Shown piece by piece: positions 4,668-16,701 of a DNA stretch of 21,142 nucleotides (position 1 is the stretch's first letter; each line of letters begins with the position of its first letter). The DNA is from a virus. The position numbers and the translations under genes are program-made. Below the pieces are notes generated by a model. That model did not search any database. It had not been told where the DNA came from and saw only the letters and a list, made by a program, of their open reading frames with translations. The stretch spans positions 1 through 21,142 of IMG/VR virus record IMGVR_UViG_3300005913_001201; one strand, 5' to 3'.

Positions 4668-4928
4668 ATGAATAAACAAGAAGCTAAAGACAAGATCAGA
4701 GAGCTTGGTGATGCTGTTGTTACATATCGTGCCGAAAATTCAAAGAAACTAAAATATAACGTAGTTACACTTGATTTCGTGGGGTATATCAGCAGTAAAC
4801 GTACCCATGCTGTAGAAGAAGACAATACAATTCTTACCTTTGCATGGGATACAGATTCTTATAGGCTGCTTCGTACTGACCTCATTACTTCTATAGTGCC
4901 GCTTGCGGCACTACTAAGGAACCAATGA
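4668..4928 (+). CDS. Hypothetical protein
   Basis: An 86-residue soluble protein preceded by a good AAGGAG site (4658-4663). It starts with a charged helix (MNKQEAKDKIRELGDAVVTYR), then has beta-patterned segments (YNVVTLDFVGYI and NTILTFAWDTDSYRLLR). I do not recognise the family. Its last codons contain a perfect inverted repeat just ahead of the next gene's ribosome site. It overlaps that gene by four bases (ATGA), so the two are likely co-translated. Confidence 0.6.
   Translation: MNKQEAKDKIRELGDAVVTYRAENSKKLKYNVVTLDFVGYISSKRTHAVEEDNTILTFAWDTDSYRLLRTDLITSIVPLAALLRNQ
4894..4913 (+). promoter_or_regulatory. Hairpin just upstream of the ribosome site of the 4925 gene
   Basis: TAGTGCCGC at 4894-4902 and GCGGCACTA at 4905-4913 form a perfect nine-base inverted repeat separated by TT. 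It ends two bases before the AAGGA ribosome site (4916-4920) of the next gene. No T-run follows, so it is not a terminator. A role in translation or mRNA stability is inferred. Confidence 0.45.
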
Positions 4929-5209
4929 GCGATAATATGTATGAACGCATCATTCATGAGAATGAAACATTTCAATGGCGATTAACTGTTAACGCATTTA
5001 GAGATGAGGAATATTTACATTTAAGGAAGTACATCCTAGACTTCGACGAAAATTGGGTCCCTATTAAAGAGGGTGTCGCTTTTCCTCTAGACTTAGATAA
5101 TGTACGAGAACTATTTATAGGTATCCTTGAAATACTATCACTAGGGGAGAGCCGTGCAGCAGTAGAGGAAATCTTTGGATCCCTACTAAAAGACGTTTAT
5201 CAAGAATAG
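4925..5209 (+). CDS. PC4-like (transcriptional coactivator p15) ssDNA-binding protein, putative
   Basis: A 94-residue protein whose ATG overlaps the upstream TGA (ATGA), with AAGGA four bases before it. Residues 14-60 read as a PC4 fold: strand FQWRLTVNAFRDEEYLHLRKY, turn DENWVPIKEGVAF with the usual G-V after the charged turn, then a long helix (VRELFIGILEILSLG). PC4-type proteins bind single-stranded DNA as dimers through the curved sheet. In phages they may assist replication or transcription. The similarity is from pattern only. The acidic C-terminal extension (85-94) is unusual for the short family members. The gene lies directly before the ligA promoter. Confidence 0.45.
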   Translation: MSDNMYERIIHENETFQWRLTVNAFRDEEYLHLRKYILDFDENWVPIKEGVAFPLDLDNVRELFIGILEILSLGESRAAVEEIFGSLLKDVYQE

Positions 5210-5241
5210 TTCTTGACTTCCCCCTCAAATGGATTTATACT
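5209..5241 (+). promoter_or_regulatory. Promoter P1 before ligA (sigma70 type)
   Basis: TTGACT at 5213-5218 and TATACT at 5236-5241 are separated by 17 bases. The upstream part GTTCTTGAC is shared with two other promoters in the window. A start seven bases after the -10 box falls at about 5248, the first base of the ligA ATG, so the transcript would be leaderless. Confidence 0.8.
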
Positions 5242-5247
5242 GATTAA

Positions 5248-6174
5248 ATGATGAAAGAACTTCTAGACAGTGCTTCAGTGGCCTATTACAATGGAACTCC
5301 TATCATTAGTGATGAGGAGTTTGATAGGCTTGCAGAAATTAGTGGTTACGGTGAACTTGGGGCCCCCGCCCCAAATGCTGTACCTCATTTTGCTAAAATG
5401 TATTCCCTTAGTAAGGTGCATTTCGGGGAAGAAGAGCCTAAATTACCTGAGCCAGTAAAAACTCCAAAACTTGATGGCGCAGCCATCTCGCTTTTGTATA
5501 TTAAACAAGAAGAGGTTCTTGTACTGTCTAAAGTTCTAACGCGCGGAAATGGAGTAAAAGGTCAAGATATAACTGAAAAAGTACGTCACTTAGTGCCTGC
5601 TCATTTTTCTGCCCCACATCAAATAGTTCAAATCGTAGCTGAGGTTGTAGCTCCCAAAACTATTCCTAATTCTAGGAATTATGCGGCGGGTGCCCTTAAT
5701 CTTAAATCTATTGAAGAAGTTAAGTCCAGAGATCTAACTGTAGTTGCGTATGGCACAAGTTGCCATGAAGATACGTACCTAGAGGATCTCAAAATGTTAG
5801 TCGGTTGGGGGTTCCTTACTGTTGATAAAGTTATTGATACTTTCCCAACCGATGGTTTTGTTATTCGTGTAAACGATAACAAAACCTATCAAAGCCTGGG
5901 CTTCACCGCGAAACACCCACGTGGTGCATACGCCCTGAAGCCCAAGGCCGAGATAGTTACTACAATATTAAAAGACGTAGAATGGCAGGTAGGCCGCTCG
6001 GGAGTAGTTTCTCCAGTAGCAATACTAGAGCCTGTATTGATTGGTGACGCCACGGTAAGCCGGGCAACACTACATAATATGGATTATATTAATGCTCTAA
6101 ATCTGGAGCTAGGGTGTACTGTAGAAGTTATTCGCTCGGGAGAAATCATCCCACGTATTATAGGAAGAGTATGA
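5248..6174 (+). CDS. ligA: NAD-dependent DNA ligase, subunit A (adenylation and OB domains)
   Basis: A 308-residue N-terminal half of a bacterial-type NAD+ ligase, which seals nicks in duplex DNA. A shortened Ia region carries ISDEEFDRL (20-28). The nucleotidyltransferase domain has the adenylated Lys in TPKLDG (K74), TRGNGVKGQDIT (98-109), catalytic VAEVV (E132), TDGFVIR (201-207) and the motif V Lys in YALKPK (K231). The OB fold follows with GRSGVVSPVAILEPV and TLHNMDY. The protein stops after IIPRIIGRV, exactly where single-chain ligases pass into the zinc finger. The remaining domains are encoded at 7887. Phage T5 has the same two-gene arrangement. No ribosome site precedes the tandem ATGs at 5248/5251, in line with a leaderless message. 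Confidence 0.92.
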   Translation: MMKELLDSASVAYYNGTPIISDEEFDRLAEISGYGELGAPAPNAVPHFAKMYSLSKVHFGEEEPKLPEPVKTPKLDGAAISLLYIKQEEVLVLSKVLTRGNGVKGQDITEKVRHLVPAHFSAPHQIVQIVAEVVAPKTIPNSRNYAAGALNLKSIEEVKSRDLTVVAYGTSCHEDTYLEDLKMLVGWGFLTVDKVIDTFPTDGFVIRVNDNKTYQSLGFTAKHPRGAYALKPKAEIVTTILKDVEWQVGRSGVVSPVAILEPVLIGDATVSRATLHNMDYINALNLELGCTVEVIRSGEIIPRIIGRV

Positions 6175-6527
6175 GTTATAGCACAACAGCATTTAATAAT
6201 GATCCAGAAAAAGCTAATCGCCCAGGAATTCTATACGTTATTGTTCTAGTTAATAAAAAGACATTTGAACGAGAGTGTGTTAAAATTGGGATCACTAAAG
6301 GGCGTTCATTTAAAGACGCTAATAAGAGAGCCAAAGGTTTTGACGGCTATGAAATAAGAATACAAAAGCTAGTCAAGGGAACCCTAGAGGAAGTATATAA
6401 TCTAGAGCAGGCGCTACACCGAGAGTTTGCTTATGCGAGTTATTTACCAAAACAAGCTTTTGGCGGAAAAACGGAGTGTTTCGACATTAATATACTATCA
6501 TCCGTCTTAAAATATATAAAGGAATGA
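6171..6527 (+). CDS. GIY-YIG superfamily nuclease-like protein (T5orf172/Mug113 type)
   Basis: A 118-residue protein. The ATG at 6171 overlaps the ligA stop (ATGA) and follows AGGA at 6162-6165, so an in-frame start further upstream is not used here. ILYVIVL (20-26) and VKIGIT (37-42) form the paired GIY and YIG strands. R53, the Glu of NLEQALHREF (E79) and the final FGGKTECFD (97-105) match the rest of the GIY-YIG core, especially the T5orf172/Mug113 branch. Such proteins cut DNA or are stand-alone homing nucleases. It sits exactly at the break between the two ligase halves. Activity and target are unknown. Confidence 0.65.
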   Translation: MSYSTTAFNNDPEKANRPGILYVIVLVNKKTFERECVKIGITKGRSFKDANKRAKGFDGYEIRIQKLVKGTLEEVYNLEQALHREFAYASYLPKQAFGGKTECFDINILSSVLKYIKE

Positions 6528-6529
6528 CC

Positions 6530-6826
6530 ATGATCTTCATTATTGACACAGAAGTTACAGTTACTAAGCAGTACGCTGTTGAGGCTGAGTCCTCCGCAGA
6601 AGCTGTGGAGTATTTAGAAGATGCTGTAAATTCCCATGAGGAGATTGAGGAGTTTAGTGCCACAGAGCCTAGCGAATATGTAGTTCGTTCTCGCCCCGGC
6701 CTTACAGAAGAAGAAGCAGTAAGCCTAATTAAACAAACACTAGAGATTAGTGATGATGATGAAATCTGGAATGATACTATGGTTGAGTCTATGATTTTGT
6801 GGTATGATGAGGAAGCTGATGACTGA
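6530..6826 (+). CDS. Hypothetical small acidic protein
   Basis: A 98-residue very acidic protein. The ATG at 6530 is preferred over 6524, because AAAGGA (6518-6523) touches the first ATG but is six bases from the second. An initial strand (FIIDTEVTVTKQYAVEAES) is followed by helices rich in Glu and Asp and a closing WYDEEADD. It is not recognised. Acidic small proteins in phages are sometimes DNA mimics or inhibitors of host enzymes, but nothing specific supports that here. It lies between the nuclease-like gene and thyA. Confidence 0.6.
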   Translation: MIFIIDTEVTVTKQYAVEAESSAEAVEYLEDAVNSHEEIEEFSATEPSEYVVRSRPGLTEEEAVSLIKQTLEISDDDEIWNDTMVESMILWYDEEADD

Positions 6827-6980
6827 GTATAACGTGCAGGGAGCTTCTTTTTCAGACGTTGAGCGAATTATGACTGCACTTAAGTTATACAAAAACTCTA
6901 CACAACTTATTGTAATAGTCTCAAATGAAGATAAAGAAGATACCTATAATATAGTATATAAATCACTAGCGGAGCTGTAA
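6819..6980 (+). CDS. Hypothetical 53-residue protein
   Basis: A short gene of 53 residues with an ATG at 6819, a GAGG site at 6809-6812, an 8-base overlap with the preceding gene and a TAATG overlap with thyA. It reads MTEYNVQGASFSDVERIMTA, then a beta strand (TQLIVIVSN) and an acidic segment. Without it there would be an unexplained 150-base gap in an otherwise continuous gene chain. It is not recognised. Confidence 0.55.
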   Translation: MTEYNVQGASFSDVERIMTALKLYKNSTQLIVIVSNEDKEDTYNIVYKSLAEL

Positions 6981-7810
6981 TGACTAGGCACGATTCGGAA
7001 TACGCCCTATTAATGAACCATATCCTAGAGTTTGGGGAAGATCGCCCAGATCGAACAGGGACGGGAACTATTGGGGTATTTGGCCCTAAGGTGACCTATA
7101 GAAATATTAATACTTCATTTCCGCTACTTACTACAAAAAAGATTCCGTTCAAAGCAGTTCTTTCAGAGCTACTTTGGTTTCTGTCTGGTAGTGTTAATGA
7201 CTTTGACTTACGTAAGTTAAATGGTACACCGCGTACTATTTGGACTGATAACCTAGAAGCTCCTTACTGGAGGCAGCAAAAAAGCGGCAATCTGGGTAGA
7301 ATCTACGGTGCTCAATGGCGTAATTGGGACGGTATTGACCAAATTAAAAACCTTGAGCATGGATTGCTGCATGACCCTTACAGCCGCCGGCATCTACTAC
7401 AATCTTATAGCCCAACGCAAATCAATAATGCGGCATTACCGGCTTGCCATCTAGTAGCGCAATTTAATGTAACTACTACTGGCGCACTTGATTGTTTAGT
7501 ATATATCAGGTCCAATGATATGTTTCTAGGGCATCCCTTCAATGTCGCCTCATATGCGCTACTAACGTACATGCTGGCCGAAGTTATTGGGTACCATCCG
7601 GGTAATCTTATCATTATGATGGGTGATGCACATATTTATAGAAATCACCTAGAGCAGGTTGAAACTCAGCTAGATCGAGTGGGGCAACAGGGCAATGTAA
7701 AATTACATATCGCACCAGGTAGATATAGCATTTTGGATTATACTATGGAAGATTTTGAGCTGGTGAACTATAACCCAGATCCAGCAATTAAAGCCCCTAT
7801 GGCGGTCTAA
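6980..7810 (+). CDS. thyA: Thymidylate synthase (ThyA type)
   Basis: A 276-residue enzyme that methylates dUMP to dTMP using methylenetetrahydrofolate. All family landmarks are present: DRTGTGT (24-30), PLLTTKK (48-54), ELLWFLSG (63-70), GRIYGAQWR (106-114), the phosphate-binding DPYSRR (132-137), the catalytic Cys156 in LPACH, RSNDMFLGHPFN (178-189) and GDAHIY (215-220). It ends in the typical PMAV. Asn188 in PFN marks a dUMP enzyme; dCMP hydroxymethylases have Asp there. LPACH replaces the commoner LPPCH. The length is normal. The start overlaps the preceding stop, with GGAG at 6971-6974. It lies between ligA and ligB and would supply dTMP for phage replication. Confidence 0.95.
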   Translation: MTRHDSEYALLMNHILEFGEDRPDRTGTGTIGVFGPKVTYRNINTSFPLLTTKKIPFKAVLSELLWFLSGSVNDFDLRKLNGTPRTIWTDNLEAPYWRQQKSGNLGRIYGAQWRNWDGIDQIKNLEHGLLHDPYSRRHLLQSYSPTQINNAALPACHLVAQFNVTTTGALDCLVYIRSNDMFLGHPFNVASYALLTYMLAEVIGYHPGNLIIMMGDAHIYRNHLEQVETQLDRVGQQGNVKLHIAPGRYSILDYTMEDFELVNYNPDPAIKAPMAV

Positions 7811-7823
7811 GGTACACCCCCGA

Positions 7824-7862
7824 AAAATTGTTCTTGACTTTTGGATGTTCTTGGGCTATAAT
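7824..7862 (+). promoter_or_regulatory. Promoter P2 before ligB (sigma70 type)
   Basis: TTGACT at 7834-7839 and a perfect TATAAT at 7857-7862 are separated by 17 bases, behind an A-rich tract. The 15 bases AAAATTGTTCTTGAC (7824-7838) recur exactly before the primase gene. The predicted start at about 7869 gives an 18-base leader containing the ligB ribosome site. Confidence 0.85.
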
Positions 7863-7886: not shown

Positions 7887-8609
7887 ATGAAGATCGAAGC
7901 ACCAACTAATTGTCCATCTTGTGACTTTGAGCTTGAGACTGATAACTCTATCCTTTACTGTCGTAACTCTGAGTGTCCTGCACAAGGGCATAAATTAGTT
8001 GAAAATTTTGCTAAGGGCATGAAGATCCTAGGATTGGGCCCTGTAGCAATTAAAAAACTAGGCTTGTTCAATATTCCTGATATATATGCAAAGACGGAAG
8101 ATGAACTAATTCAGACGTTGGGTTCAGCCTTAGGAAGTAAGCTTTACAAAAATATTCAAGTATCAAAAACAGCTTCACTAAACCAAGCGCTGCCCACACT
8201 AGGAATACCACTTATTGGGAAAACAGCCACAGATAAGATATGTGCCAGCGGACTTACCAGGTTTGACTGGCTCACAGAAGAAATAGCTAACAAAGCTCTA
8301 GGGCCTAAAGCTGCAGCCAGCCTCATTAAATATTTTGAGTCTGGTGCTTGGAAGGAGTTACCGTTCTCCTTACTTGTCGAAACAAAAACTAAAACAAGCG
8401 GTAAGACTGTATGCATAACAGGCAAACTAACCTCTTTCAAAACCAAAGCTGAAGCCGCAAAGTATCTAACTGAGAAGGGATACCAAGTAGTGGATAGCGT
8501 GACAAAAACAACTGAGATTCTAGTGAATGAGTCTGGTATTGAAAGCTCTAAAACCAAAAAAGCGAGTGCAAATGGCACTCAAATTGTTAACAATATAAAG
8601 GACCTATAA
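7887..8609 (+). CDS. ligB: NAD-dependent DNA ligase, subunit B (zinc finger, HhH, BRCT domains)
   Basis: A 240-residue C-terminal half of the ligase. ATG 7887 is chosen because it follows AAGGAA (7875-7880) and lies downstream of P2; the in-frame ATG at 7845 is inside the promoter. A four-Cys zinc finger (C9, C12, C25, C30: CPSC and CRNSECPAQ) is followed by helix-hairpin-helix repeats (KILGLGPVAIKKL and LGIPLIGKTATDKI). A BRCT domain from about residue 170 contains GKTVCITGKL and YLTEKGYQVVDSV. It lacks the nucleotidyltransferase core, so it must act together with LigA to bind and encircle nicked DNA, as inferred for T5. It has its own promoter, unlike the genes between the two halves. Confidence 0.88.
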   Translation: MKIEAPTNCPSCDFELETDNSILYCRNSECPAQGHKLVENFAKGMKILGLGPVAIKKLGLFNIPDIYAKTEDELIQTLGSALGSKLYKNIQVSKTASLNQALPTLGIPLIGKTATDKICASGLTRFDWLTEEIANKALGPKAAASLIKYFESGAWKELPFSLLVETKTKTSGKTVCITGKLTSFKTKAEAAKYLTEKGYQVVDSVTKTTEILVNESGIESSKTKKASANGTQIVNNIKDL

Positions 8610-9341: not shown

Positions 9342-9364
9342 TTACTAACTGTAAGTAGAGAAAG

Positions 9365-9397
9365 CGGGACGTAGTAATAAGCTGCGTCCCGTTTTTT
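9365..9397 (+). terminator. Intrinsic terminator after the D5-like gene
   Basis: CGGGACGTAG (9365-9374) pairs with CTGCGTCCCG (9382-9391), ten pairs including one G-U, with a seven-base loop. TTTTTT follows at 9392-9397. Upstream A residues allow some extension. The next gene begins only 13 bases later. Confidence 0.9.
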
Positions 9398-9410
9398 GTC
9401 GGAGAAAACT

Positions 9411-10754
9411 TTGGACCTTGCTAGTGCACTATTAAAGCAAATAATTAGCCAGCAAGACATAGCTACTTGGACTCTTTTAAGACAAAACTATTTACCACCC
9501 GAATATAAAGAATTTCATAAACGAGTCGGATCCTTTGTGGATAGATTCGGTAAGGTTCCTACCTTTGAAGAACTGAAGTTCGACGCTCACGGGAAGCAAC
9601 TTCAACAAAAGATCGCTATTGTAGAACTCGTTGAGGTTGAAGCCGACGCGGAGATACTTCTAGAGTTTCTAAAAAGTGATTACGCCAACCAGCTAACTAT
9701 GGATGGCATTGATAAGTTGTTAGATAAATCCGTTGCCTTTGAGACCCCTACAGATAGTATAGAGGCTCTACAAGTCATTGTCCAAGATATCGAAGACAAG
9801 ATTGATATTGATACTGGCGGCGAAAGTATGCAAAGAATTGAGCTGTTTGAGTCTGAGGAGGCTATGTCTAGTCGTGTTACTCTGGGGCTAAATACAGAGT
9901 ACGACGCGAATATTCAGTTTAGCCCGGAAGACCTAGTTCTGCTCGGCGGTAGACGCGGTGCGGGTAAATCCATTGTATGTGCTAATTTAGTTGCTGATAG
10001 TTACGAAAAAGACGAGTCAGCTATGTATTTTACCATAGAAATGAACCAGCGGGAAACGCTGCAACGTATTGTTTCTATGAGCGCTAGAGTGTCACATTAT
10101 AGGTTGAAAAACAGAACGCTCCACCCAGATGAGTTACAACGAGTAGCTAAGTGGTGGTCTGCCAGATATATTGATGGTGAAGAATTTTACGAAAAACACT
10201 ACAGCTTAGAACTTGCTTTCGATGAGTATCATAGTAAGCTATGTAAGTTGCCCCTAAAAGATACTAGGTTTGATATTATTTATGATTCACAGCTTACTAT
10301 CCCTAAACTACAGTCTGAACTAGAGCGTAAAGTACCAATACTACGGCCTAAAAAGATTATTGTAGACTACCTAAACAAAGTTCAGCTACACGCTTCCCCA
10401 TCTAAGCGTGGGCAGTTTGACTGGACTGAGCAAATTGAAGTTGCTGATAAGCTAAAGAAGTTAGCACAAAAATACAAAGTGCCGATCTTCGCGCCGTACC
10501 AAACTGATGCTAGTGGGGAGGCACGCTTCGCCAAGGGTATCTTAGACGCTGCAGATGCTTCCTTTTCTCTAGATGCCCATACCAAAGATGATATGGCTAT
10601 TACGTTTAACTGTACAAAAATGCGTAGTAACGATGAAGTTAATTTTTGTAGTGTTATGGATTGGGAAACTCTCAAGCTTGGTCCACAAACTGCGATTATT
10701 AAAGAAAAAGATGAAGATGCCGAGGAAATAGCAGATGGGCCAACGCCTTGGTAA
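9411..10754 (+). CDS. Replicative DNA helicase, DnaB/RecA-fold type
   Basis: A 447-residue ring-helicase-type ATPase that would unwind DNA at the fork. The start is TTG 9411, six bases after GGAG (9401-9404); the earlier TTG at 9396 lies in the terminator T-run. Residues 1-150 are helical, like a DnaB N-terminal region. Then come the Walker A GGRRGAGKS (179-187, K186), YFTIEMNQRE around 206-215 (the DnaB H1a-like E-M segment) and Walker B IIVDYLNKV (316-324). Further on, FAPYQTDASGEAR resembles the DnaB H3 loop, where Gln contacts phosphate. It sits between D5 and primase, as in T5. A terminator with no promoter after it precedes this gene, so expression depends on read-through. Confidence 0.85.
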   Translation: MDLASALLKQIISQQDIATWTLLRQNYLPPEYKEFHKRVGSFVDRFGKVPTFEELKFDAHGKQLQQKIAIVELVEVEADAEILLEFLKSDYANQLTMDGIDKLLDKSVAFETPTDSIEALQVIVQDIEDKIDIDTGGESMQRIELFESEEAMSSRVTLGLNTEYDANIQFSPEDLVLLGGRRGAGKSIVCANLVADSYEKDESAMYFTIEMNQRETLQRIVSMSARVSHYRLKNRTLHPDELQRVAKWWSARYIDGEEFYEKHYSLELAFDEYHSKLCKLPLKDTRFDIIYDSQLTIPKLQSELERKVPILRPKKIIVDYLNKVQLHASPSKRGQFDWTEQIEVADKLKKLAQKYKVPIFAPYQTDASGEARFAKGILDAADASFSLDAHTKDDMAITFNCTKMRSNDEVNFCSVMDWETLKLGPQTAIIKEKDEDAEEIADGPTPW

Positions 10755-10791
10755 AATTGTTCTTGACAGCTAACTTAAACTATGCTATATT
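10753..10791 (+). promoter_or_regulatory. Promoter P3 before the primase gene (sigma70 type, extended -10)
   Basis: A consensus TTGACA at 10763-10768 and TATATT at 10786-10791 are separated by 17 bases, with TG at 10783-10784 making an extended -10. AAAATTGTTCTTGAC at 10753-10767 is identical to P2 and overlaps the helicase stop codon. The predicted start at about 10798 is only four bases before the primase ATG. Confidence 0.85.
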
Positions 10792-16300: not shown

Positions 16301-16334
16301 TTTCCTTGACTTCACAGATCAACTATGGTAATAT
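16301..16334 (+). promoter_or_regulatory. Promoter P4 before the 16336 gene and ssb (sigma70 type, extended -10)
   Basis: TTGACT at 16306-16311 and TAATAT at 16329-16334 are 17 bases apart, with TG at 16326-16327 as an extended -10. CCTTGACTT resembles the other promoters' TTCTTGAC core. The predicted start at about 16341 lies downstream of the ATG at 16336, so this promoter may mainly serve the ssDNA-binding gene. Confidence 0.75.
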
Positions 16335-16335
16335 C

Positions 16336-16701
16336 ATGATTCTATTCGACTGGCATAAGGTTAAGTTCCACGCAGATGGTAAAGCTAGCAACATAATGCT
16401 AATTATGCATGCTATCACTTGGCCATATGTATTACCTTCGTATAGAATGAGAAAAGTAAACCCCTTCTACGATATTGATTTTAATGGGCATAGTTTCTTG
16501 TTAGACCCAGAGAGATTTCTAAATCGAAGAGACGTTCCGCTCACTAAGCGGGTGGAATATGTCTCACTAGCTAGTAGGCGCTGCTATGCAGAATATCTAT
16601 TAAGCGGTGAGAAAACACTAGACTGTAGGCTAGTAAAGAGACCTATAGACAATGAGCTACTAACAGTAAAAACAAACCGAGTATGCTTTGCATACGAATA
16701 A
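16336..16701 (+). CDS. Hypothetical protein upstream of ssb
   Basis: 121 residues from ATG 16336; not recognised. The longer reading to TTG 16306 would start inside the -35 box and is rejected. No convincing ribosome site precedes 16336, and a transcript from P4 would begin just after this ATG. The gene may therefore be read mainly from upstream transcripts, or may start at ATG 16396. The protein is basic and aromatic-rich (LFDWHKVKFHADGK, YVLPSYRMRKVNPFYDIDF), with a helical middle (KRVEYVSLASRRCYAEYLL). The place between D10 and ssb suggests it may correspond to T5 D11, but I could not confirm this by sequence. Confidence 0.55.
   Translation: MILFDWHKVKFHADGKASNIMLIMHAITWPYVLPSYRMRKVNPFYDIDFNGHSFLLDPERFLNRRDVPLTKRVEYVSLASRRCYAEYLLSGEKTLDCRLVKRPIDNELLTVKTNRVCFAYE

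Follow-up and report, generated by a model that had tools for sequence, protein, structure and literature searches.

Promoter spacing predicts a leaderless ligA mRNA in a T5-like phage and in some of its relatives

Introduction

Phage T5 (AY543070) resembles the phage DNA described here in having split ligA and ligB genes, annotated promoters directly before both (ligA early promoter, 65284 to 65358), and a similar gene order. The T5 ligA promoter has TTGCTT at -35 and leaves 31 nt between the -10 box and the ATG, whereas the DNA described here has TTGACT and 6 nt. T5 ligA is preceded by a weak GAGAG-type Shine-Dalgarno (SD) sequence, and the SD sequence of T5 ligB is stronger. The distances between promoters and genes in T5 peak at 29 to 31 nt (14 of 26). 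Pairs at 6 to 7 nt were absent both from T5 (0 of 26; bases 1 to 90000 of 121,750, scanned with a looser -35 than the contigs below) and from Eps7 (0 of 5; 40,001 bases).

Leaderless mRNA and 70S initiation are covered by a review (PMC9031893), excerpts of which describe leaderless mRNAs as rare in enterobacteria; this may count against a leaderless gene here. In leaderless bacterial genes, a -10-like box about 10 to 12 bp before the start codon replaces the SD sequence and is a published mark of such genes, according to excerpts of the paper concerned (PMC3160421). An excerpt of a phage paper holds a passing remark that phage transcripts are often leaderless (PMC5312081). Among the open-licence titles and abstract openings listed, a literature search did not find leaderless genes of T5-like phages, which does not imply that they are absent from the literature.

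Here, we analyze a stretch of 21,142 nucleotides (positions 1 to 21,142 of IMG/VR virus record IMGVR_UViG_3300005913_001201), hereafter the window. We propose that a sigma-70 promoter belonging to ligA of this T5-like phage very probably yields a leaderless mRNA for the gene, a reading that is built on sequence comparison.

Results

In the window, ligA encodes subunit A of a split NAD-dependent DNA ligase and lies inside a T5-like replication module, as judged by gene order against T5, with a promoter directly upstream (Table 1). The preliminary description had reported that this promoter is near consensus (TTGACT-17-TATACT) and that the ATG is repeated at 5251, and both statements were confirmed. 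The stop codon of the PC4-like gene lies 3 nt upstream of the -35 box and 38 nt upstream of ATG 5248, so the 38-nt intergenic stretch holds little beyond the promoter. The A of ATG 5248 is the seventh base past the -10 box, which is a usual sigma-70 start position. The -10 box thus places the predicted +1 on or beside an AUG start codon; since 5246, 5247, and 5248 are all A, a transcription start 1 or 2 nt before 5248 is also compatible. The leader of about 30 nt that runs from the -10 box to the ATG in T5-type genes was not found at this ligA. Downstream, the stretch that separates ligA from ligB (6171 to 7810) holds a gene with a T5orf172 domain (weak match) and one for thymidylate synthase; thy sits elsewhere in T5.

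Table 1. Coordinates of ligA, its promoter, and related features in the window
Feature	Position	Strand	Remark
Upstream gene, PC4-like transcription regulator	4925..5209	+	Stop TAG 5207-5209
TTCTTGACT, containing the -35 element TTGACT of the ligA promoter	from 5210	+	
-35 element TTGACT	5213..5218	+	Read in sequence; same place and form in relatives
-10 element TATACT	5236..5241	+	17-nt spacer after TTGACT; read in sequence
GATTAA between -10 box and ligA ATG	5242-5247	+	
Predicted transcription start (AAA)	5246..5248	+	Best guess 5248; inferred from spacing; 6 nt kept in relatives
ligA, NAD-dependent DNA ligase subunit A	5248..6174	+	Adenylation and OB domains; ATG 5248
Second in-frame ATG of ligA	5251..5253	+	
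ligB sister promoter	7834..7862	+	24 nt before SD-led ATG at 7887; contrast case
Primase sister promoter	10763..10791	+	10 nt before ATG 10802

Homologues of ligA were collected from viral contigs (7 loci, then at least 80, one of them already included, and then at least 80 largely from the same contigs), from genome contigs (2 of 80 loci entered the set), and from regions of eight named phages, and the resulting 177 entries were reduced to 114 distinct loci. A promoter was accepted when its -35 element began with TTGAC, TTGAT, or TTTAC. Loci with an in-frame ATG 4 to 9 nt behind the -10 box were classified as close-spaced, and distances to the start were counted from 15 nt upward for the leadered class. 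Among the matches listed, the promoter was present at the same place in 88 of the 114 distinct loci. These comprised 24 close-spaced loci and 64 leadered loci with the start at 20 to 32 nt, a gap that is partly a product of the rule because an in-frame ATG, GTG, or TTG also occurs at 10 to 13 nt in several loci of the leadered class. Twenty-four further loci were promoterless, including all eight named phages, whose -35 boxes are of the T5 type and fall outside the rule, and 2 were cut off. None of the eight named phage regions examined showed the close-spaced geometry. The ATG in all 24 close-spaced loci is required by the classification rule, and no locus with a TTG start among those classed as leadered was close-spaced.

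The distance from the -10 box to the ATG was 6 nt in 23 of the 24 close-spaced loci and 5 nt in the remaining one (L018). Clustering of the proteins of these loci gives 15 groups at 90% identity and 10 at 70%. The intervening letters vary (GATTAA, AGCATT, ACTTAA, ATACAA, ATAACA, GCTTGA, ATATAA, ATACAT, and ATAAGA), indicating that it is chiefly the length that is conserved. The start matches ATG 5248 in six of the seven close-spaced relatives of the window's own clade (L012, L015, L016, L017, L018, and L155) and lies one codon later in the seventh (L001). In a second group, clade B, ligA starts two or three codons earlier than the match to 5248, as placed by tblastn. Wherever the start codon shifts relative to the protein, the distance from the -10 box stays at 6 nt, except for the 5 nt of L018. 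That the -10 box and the start codon shift jointly suggests selection on the distance itself. Of the 24 close-spaced loci, only that of the window has the doubled ATG, so a general role for this repeat is not supported.

SD pairing was scored as the best duplex with the 16S end in the region 18 to 4 nt before the start, with a threshold of -3.5 kcal/mol. Upstream of 5248, the best duplex reached -3.1 kcal/mol, versus -9.3 for the strongest genes of the window, and it involves nucleotides that precede the predicted +1. A good SD sequence is absent from ligA, in agreement with the earlier statement that no ribosome site precedes this gene. Pairing was weaker than the threshold at 6 of 20 gene starts in the window (ligA and five other genes), after exclusion of 3 of 23 positions (two wrong starts and the alternative at 5251). 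The same score was applied to the first 93 ligA loci with duplicates removed, the start being off by a few nucleotides in L028, L036, and L042. Among the distinct starts of the matches listed, the threshold was reached by none of the 20 close-spaced starts, by 35 of the 36 in the leadered class, and by 9 of the 11 that are promoterless. The sole leadered start below the threshold was that of Eps7 (-2.9), and since the ligA leaders of both T5 and Eps7 are only weakly SD-like, a weak SD sequence need not mean a leaderless mRNA. The leaderless-type geometry noted in the preliminary description is supported for the predicted start by these comparisons, with 24 of 114 distinct loci at 5 to 6 nt and SD pairing lost alongside.

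A tree was built from 80 distinct LigA proteins out of 92, with L006 dropped as short. For the tree labels, L091, L093, L094, and the cut-off L076 were scored as leadered by eye; in the rule-based survey, the first three have no such promoter and L076 is cut off. With these labels, the close-spaced state requires at least three changes. It falls in two groups, namely the window's clade, with 7 rows, and clade B, with 17, and the leadered L034 is nested inside clade B. T5 and many relatives have a leadered ligA. On this tree, the close-spaced state of ligA is reconstructed as having been gained or lost more than once.

The pattern TTGAC-N18-TANNNT-N6-ATG matched 52 times in 22 of 25 virus records, a count to which related records and some questionable -10 boxes contribute, and the same pattern read backwards matched 0 times. 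Promoter-gene pairs were then defined as a promoter site with the ATG of an open reading frame (ORF) of at least 40 codons within 60 nt. Pairs at 6 to 7 nt made up 35 of 65 in eight clade B contigs (24 at 6 nt and 11 at 7 nt), 7 of 60 in five contigs with a leadered ligA, and 4 of 35 in six contigs of the window's clade. Because of relatedness among the clade B contigs, their 35 of 65 pairs are not independent, and the stricter filter of this count passed over the promoters of ligA in G004, G005, and G006. Without the ORF filter, ATG occurred at 6 nt 12, 28, and 4 times in the three contig groups, and GTA, as a control, 0, 3, and 2 times. In clade B, the genes with this geometry include ligA, the DNA-binding proteins phrog_624 and phrog_1725, and small genes without known function. 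The ATG of the DNA polymerase gene lies 7 nt (L101, G015) or 6 nt (L109, G011) behind a consensus -10 box. Within the window's clade, ligA is the recurrent gene, and three ORFs of 69 to 176 codons show the geometry in single contigs. Two phage-like contigs with a leadered ligA (L226 and L227, which supplied the two loci taken from genome contigs) are found in marine gammaproteobacterial MAGs (Porticoccaceae and Halieaceae); the binning may be wrong, and these families are a weak hint to the hosts of the wider group.

Generic promoter-like sites numbered 56 in the window versus 46.7 (standard deviation, 6.2) in shuffles, and enrichment is not clear. The stricter pattern TTCTTGAC-N18/19-TATA gave three forward matches in the window, directly before ligA, ligB, and primase, with 0 on the reverse strand and 0 in the reversed-pattern control. 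With its ATG 10 nt behind the promoter, primase would have a leader of about 4 nt. As a second leaderless gene it was rejected, because of the 10 nt in the window and a spacing that is not conserved among relatives. Elsewhere, a promoter (TTGACT, 17 nt, TAATAT; 16306 to 16336) ends 1 nt before the ATG of a phrog_4258 gene (16336 to 16701), so that the annotated start codon would be missing from the RNA; many relatives likewise have the -10 box 0 to 2 nt ahead of the ATG of this gene. A terminator-like hairpin with a T run (about 9360 to 9411) directly precedes the SD sequence of a DnaB-like helicase gene. Hairpins similar by eye are present in several relatives, and attenuation or antitermination is possible. 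An Rfam search of the whole window gave 0 matches, and a structured or known RNA element was rejected accordingly.

When eight predicted mRNAs were folded, at least the first 9 nt were unpaired in the minimum-energy structure of all eight. A special lack of 5' structure was rejected, because z-scores ran from -0.68 to 1.47 (window, 1.47) with no consistent trend. A phage-encoded initiator tRNA as a helper was also dropped, since the pattern is strongest in the eight clade B contigs, of which seven lack tRNA genes and one carries two others. No tRNA genes were found in the window. Its relative G001 has a tRNA cluster that includes a tRNA-Met and, besides 21 tRNA genes, carries a tmRNA gene (L130:3891-4296); a tmRNA gene is also present in G002 (L136:19032-19439), likewise of the window's clade.

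Discussion

Under the proposed mechanism, sigma-70 polymerase would start at 5248 (or 5246 to 5247), and the RNA would then begin with AUG after 0 to 2 nt. A 70S ribosome with initiator tRNA would take this 5'-terminal AUG, giving LigA. Transcripts reading through from upstream would yield little LigA, because the same AUG would then be internal and without an SD sequence; LigA output would consequently follow the ligA promoter. The arrangement may keep the intergenic region compact, make ligA independent of SD-led initiation, or serve its timing.

A very short leader, with transcription from 5243 to 5245 and the AUG near the 5' end instead of at it, appears unlikely. Start-site choice does vary by a few nucleotides, the primase ATG of the window lies 10 nt behind its -10 box, and the 35 close pairs of clade B are divided between 6 nt (24) and 7 nt (11), but the distance is fixed at 6 (once 5) in the 24 ligA loci. 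Even such a leader would leave translation in the leaderless or near-leaderless category. The closeness of the PC4-like gene, which ends only 38 nt before ATG 5248, and the 24 promoterless loci among the 114 distinct ones in the matches listed would fit a ligA translated mainly from longer transcripts that begin upstream, whether through SD-less initiation or through reinitiation after the stop at 5209, with the promoter spacing a coincidence. We consider this very unlikely, given that the spacing is kept in diverged loci and that 9 of 11 distinct promoterless starts have an SD sequence, unlike the close-spaced ones.

Translation from ATG 5251, behind a leader of at least 3 nt, would match the many relatives, including L001 and leadered ones, that start at the corresponding codon. 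Six of the seven close-spaced relatives in the window's clade nevertheless start at the match to 5248 and lack the second ATG, which makes this choice of codon highly improbable. That the promoter is an unused chance match is scarcely credible: generic promoter-like sites barely exceed those in shuffles of the window, yet a promoter stands at this place in 88 of the 114 distinct loci among the matches listed, and an annotated T5 promoter stands there as well. A leaderless ligA mRNA starting at or beside 5248 is the reading that we prefer.

A broader reading, which we offer tentatively as possible if rather doubtful, is that uncultured T5-like lineages have switched genes between SD-led and leaderless expression. 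Part of the infection program would thereby be read via the 70S leaderless route, possibly escaping host or defense steps that act on SD-led initiation. The switched set would be ligA in the window's clade and a battery of early and replication genes in clade B, comprising ligA, the genes of two DNA-binding proteins, several small genes, and, in certain contigs, that of DNA polymerase.

These loci provide a natural comparison in which one gene and its promoter can be followed across many related phages with the leader present or absent, and they allow one to ask when and why an SD leader was lost or gained. Should many clade B genes really have leaderless starts, SD-dependent gene callers may misplace start codons there, and such phages would be a lytic system for studies of 70S initiation.

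Leaderless mRNA is already known; what is new is that T5-like phages are predicted to use it recurrently for one of their replication genes. Bacterial genes led by a TA-type box have a -10-like element, whereas the window's ligA has a full -35/-10 promoter, and here a single gene family with both leadered and leaderless members is followed. The closest likeness in mode of working is to lambda cI, a phage mRNA with a 5' AUG that is bound by 70S ribosomes, as given in excerpts of the source (PMC4965119), the ligA case being predicted from sequence. The likeness does not extend to a claim of gene kinship: lambda cI is the repressor of a temperate phage, whereas the window's ligA is a replication gene of a T5-like phage.
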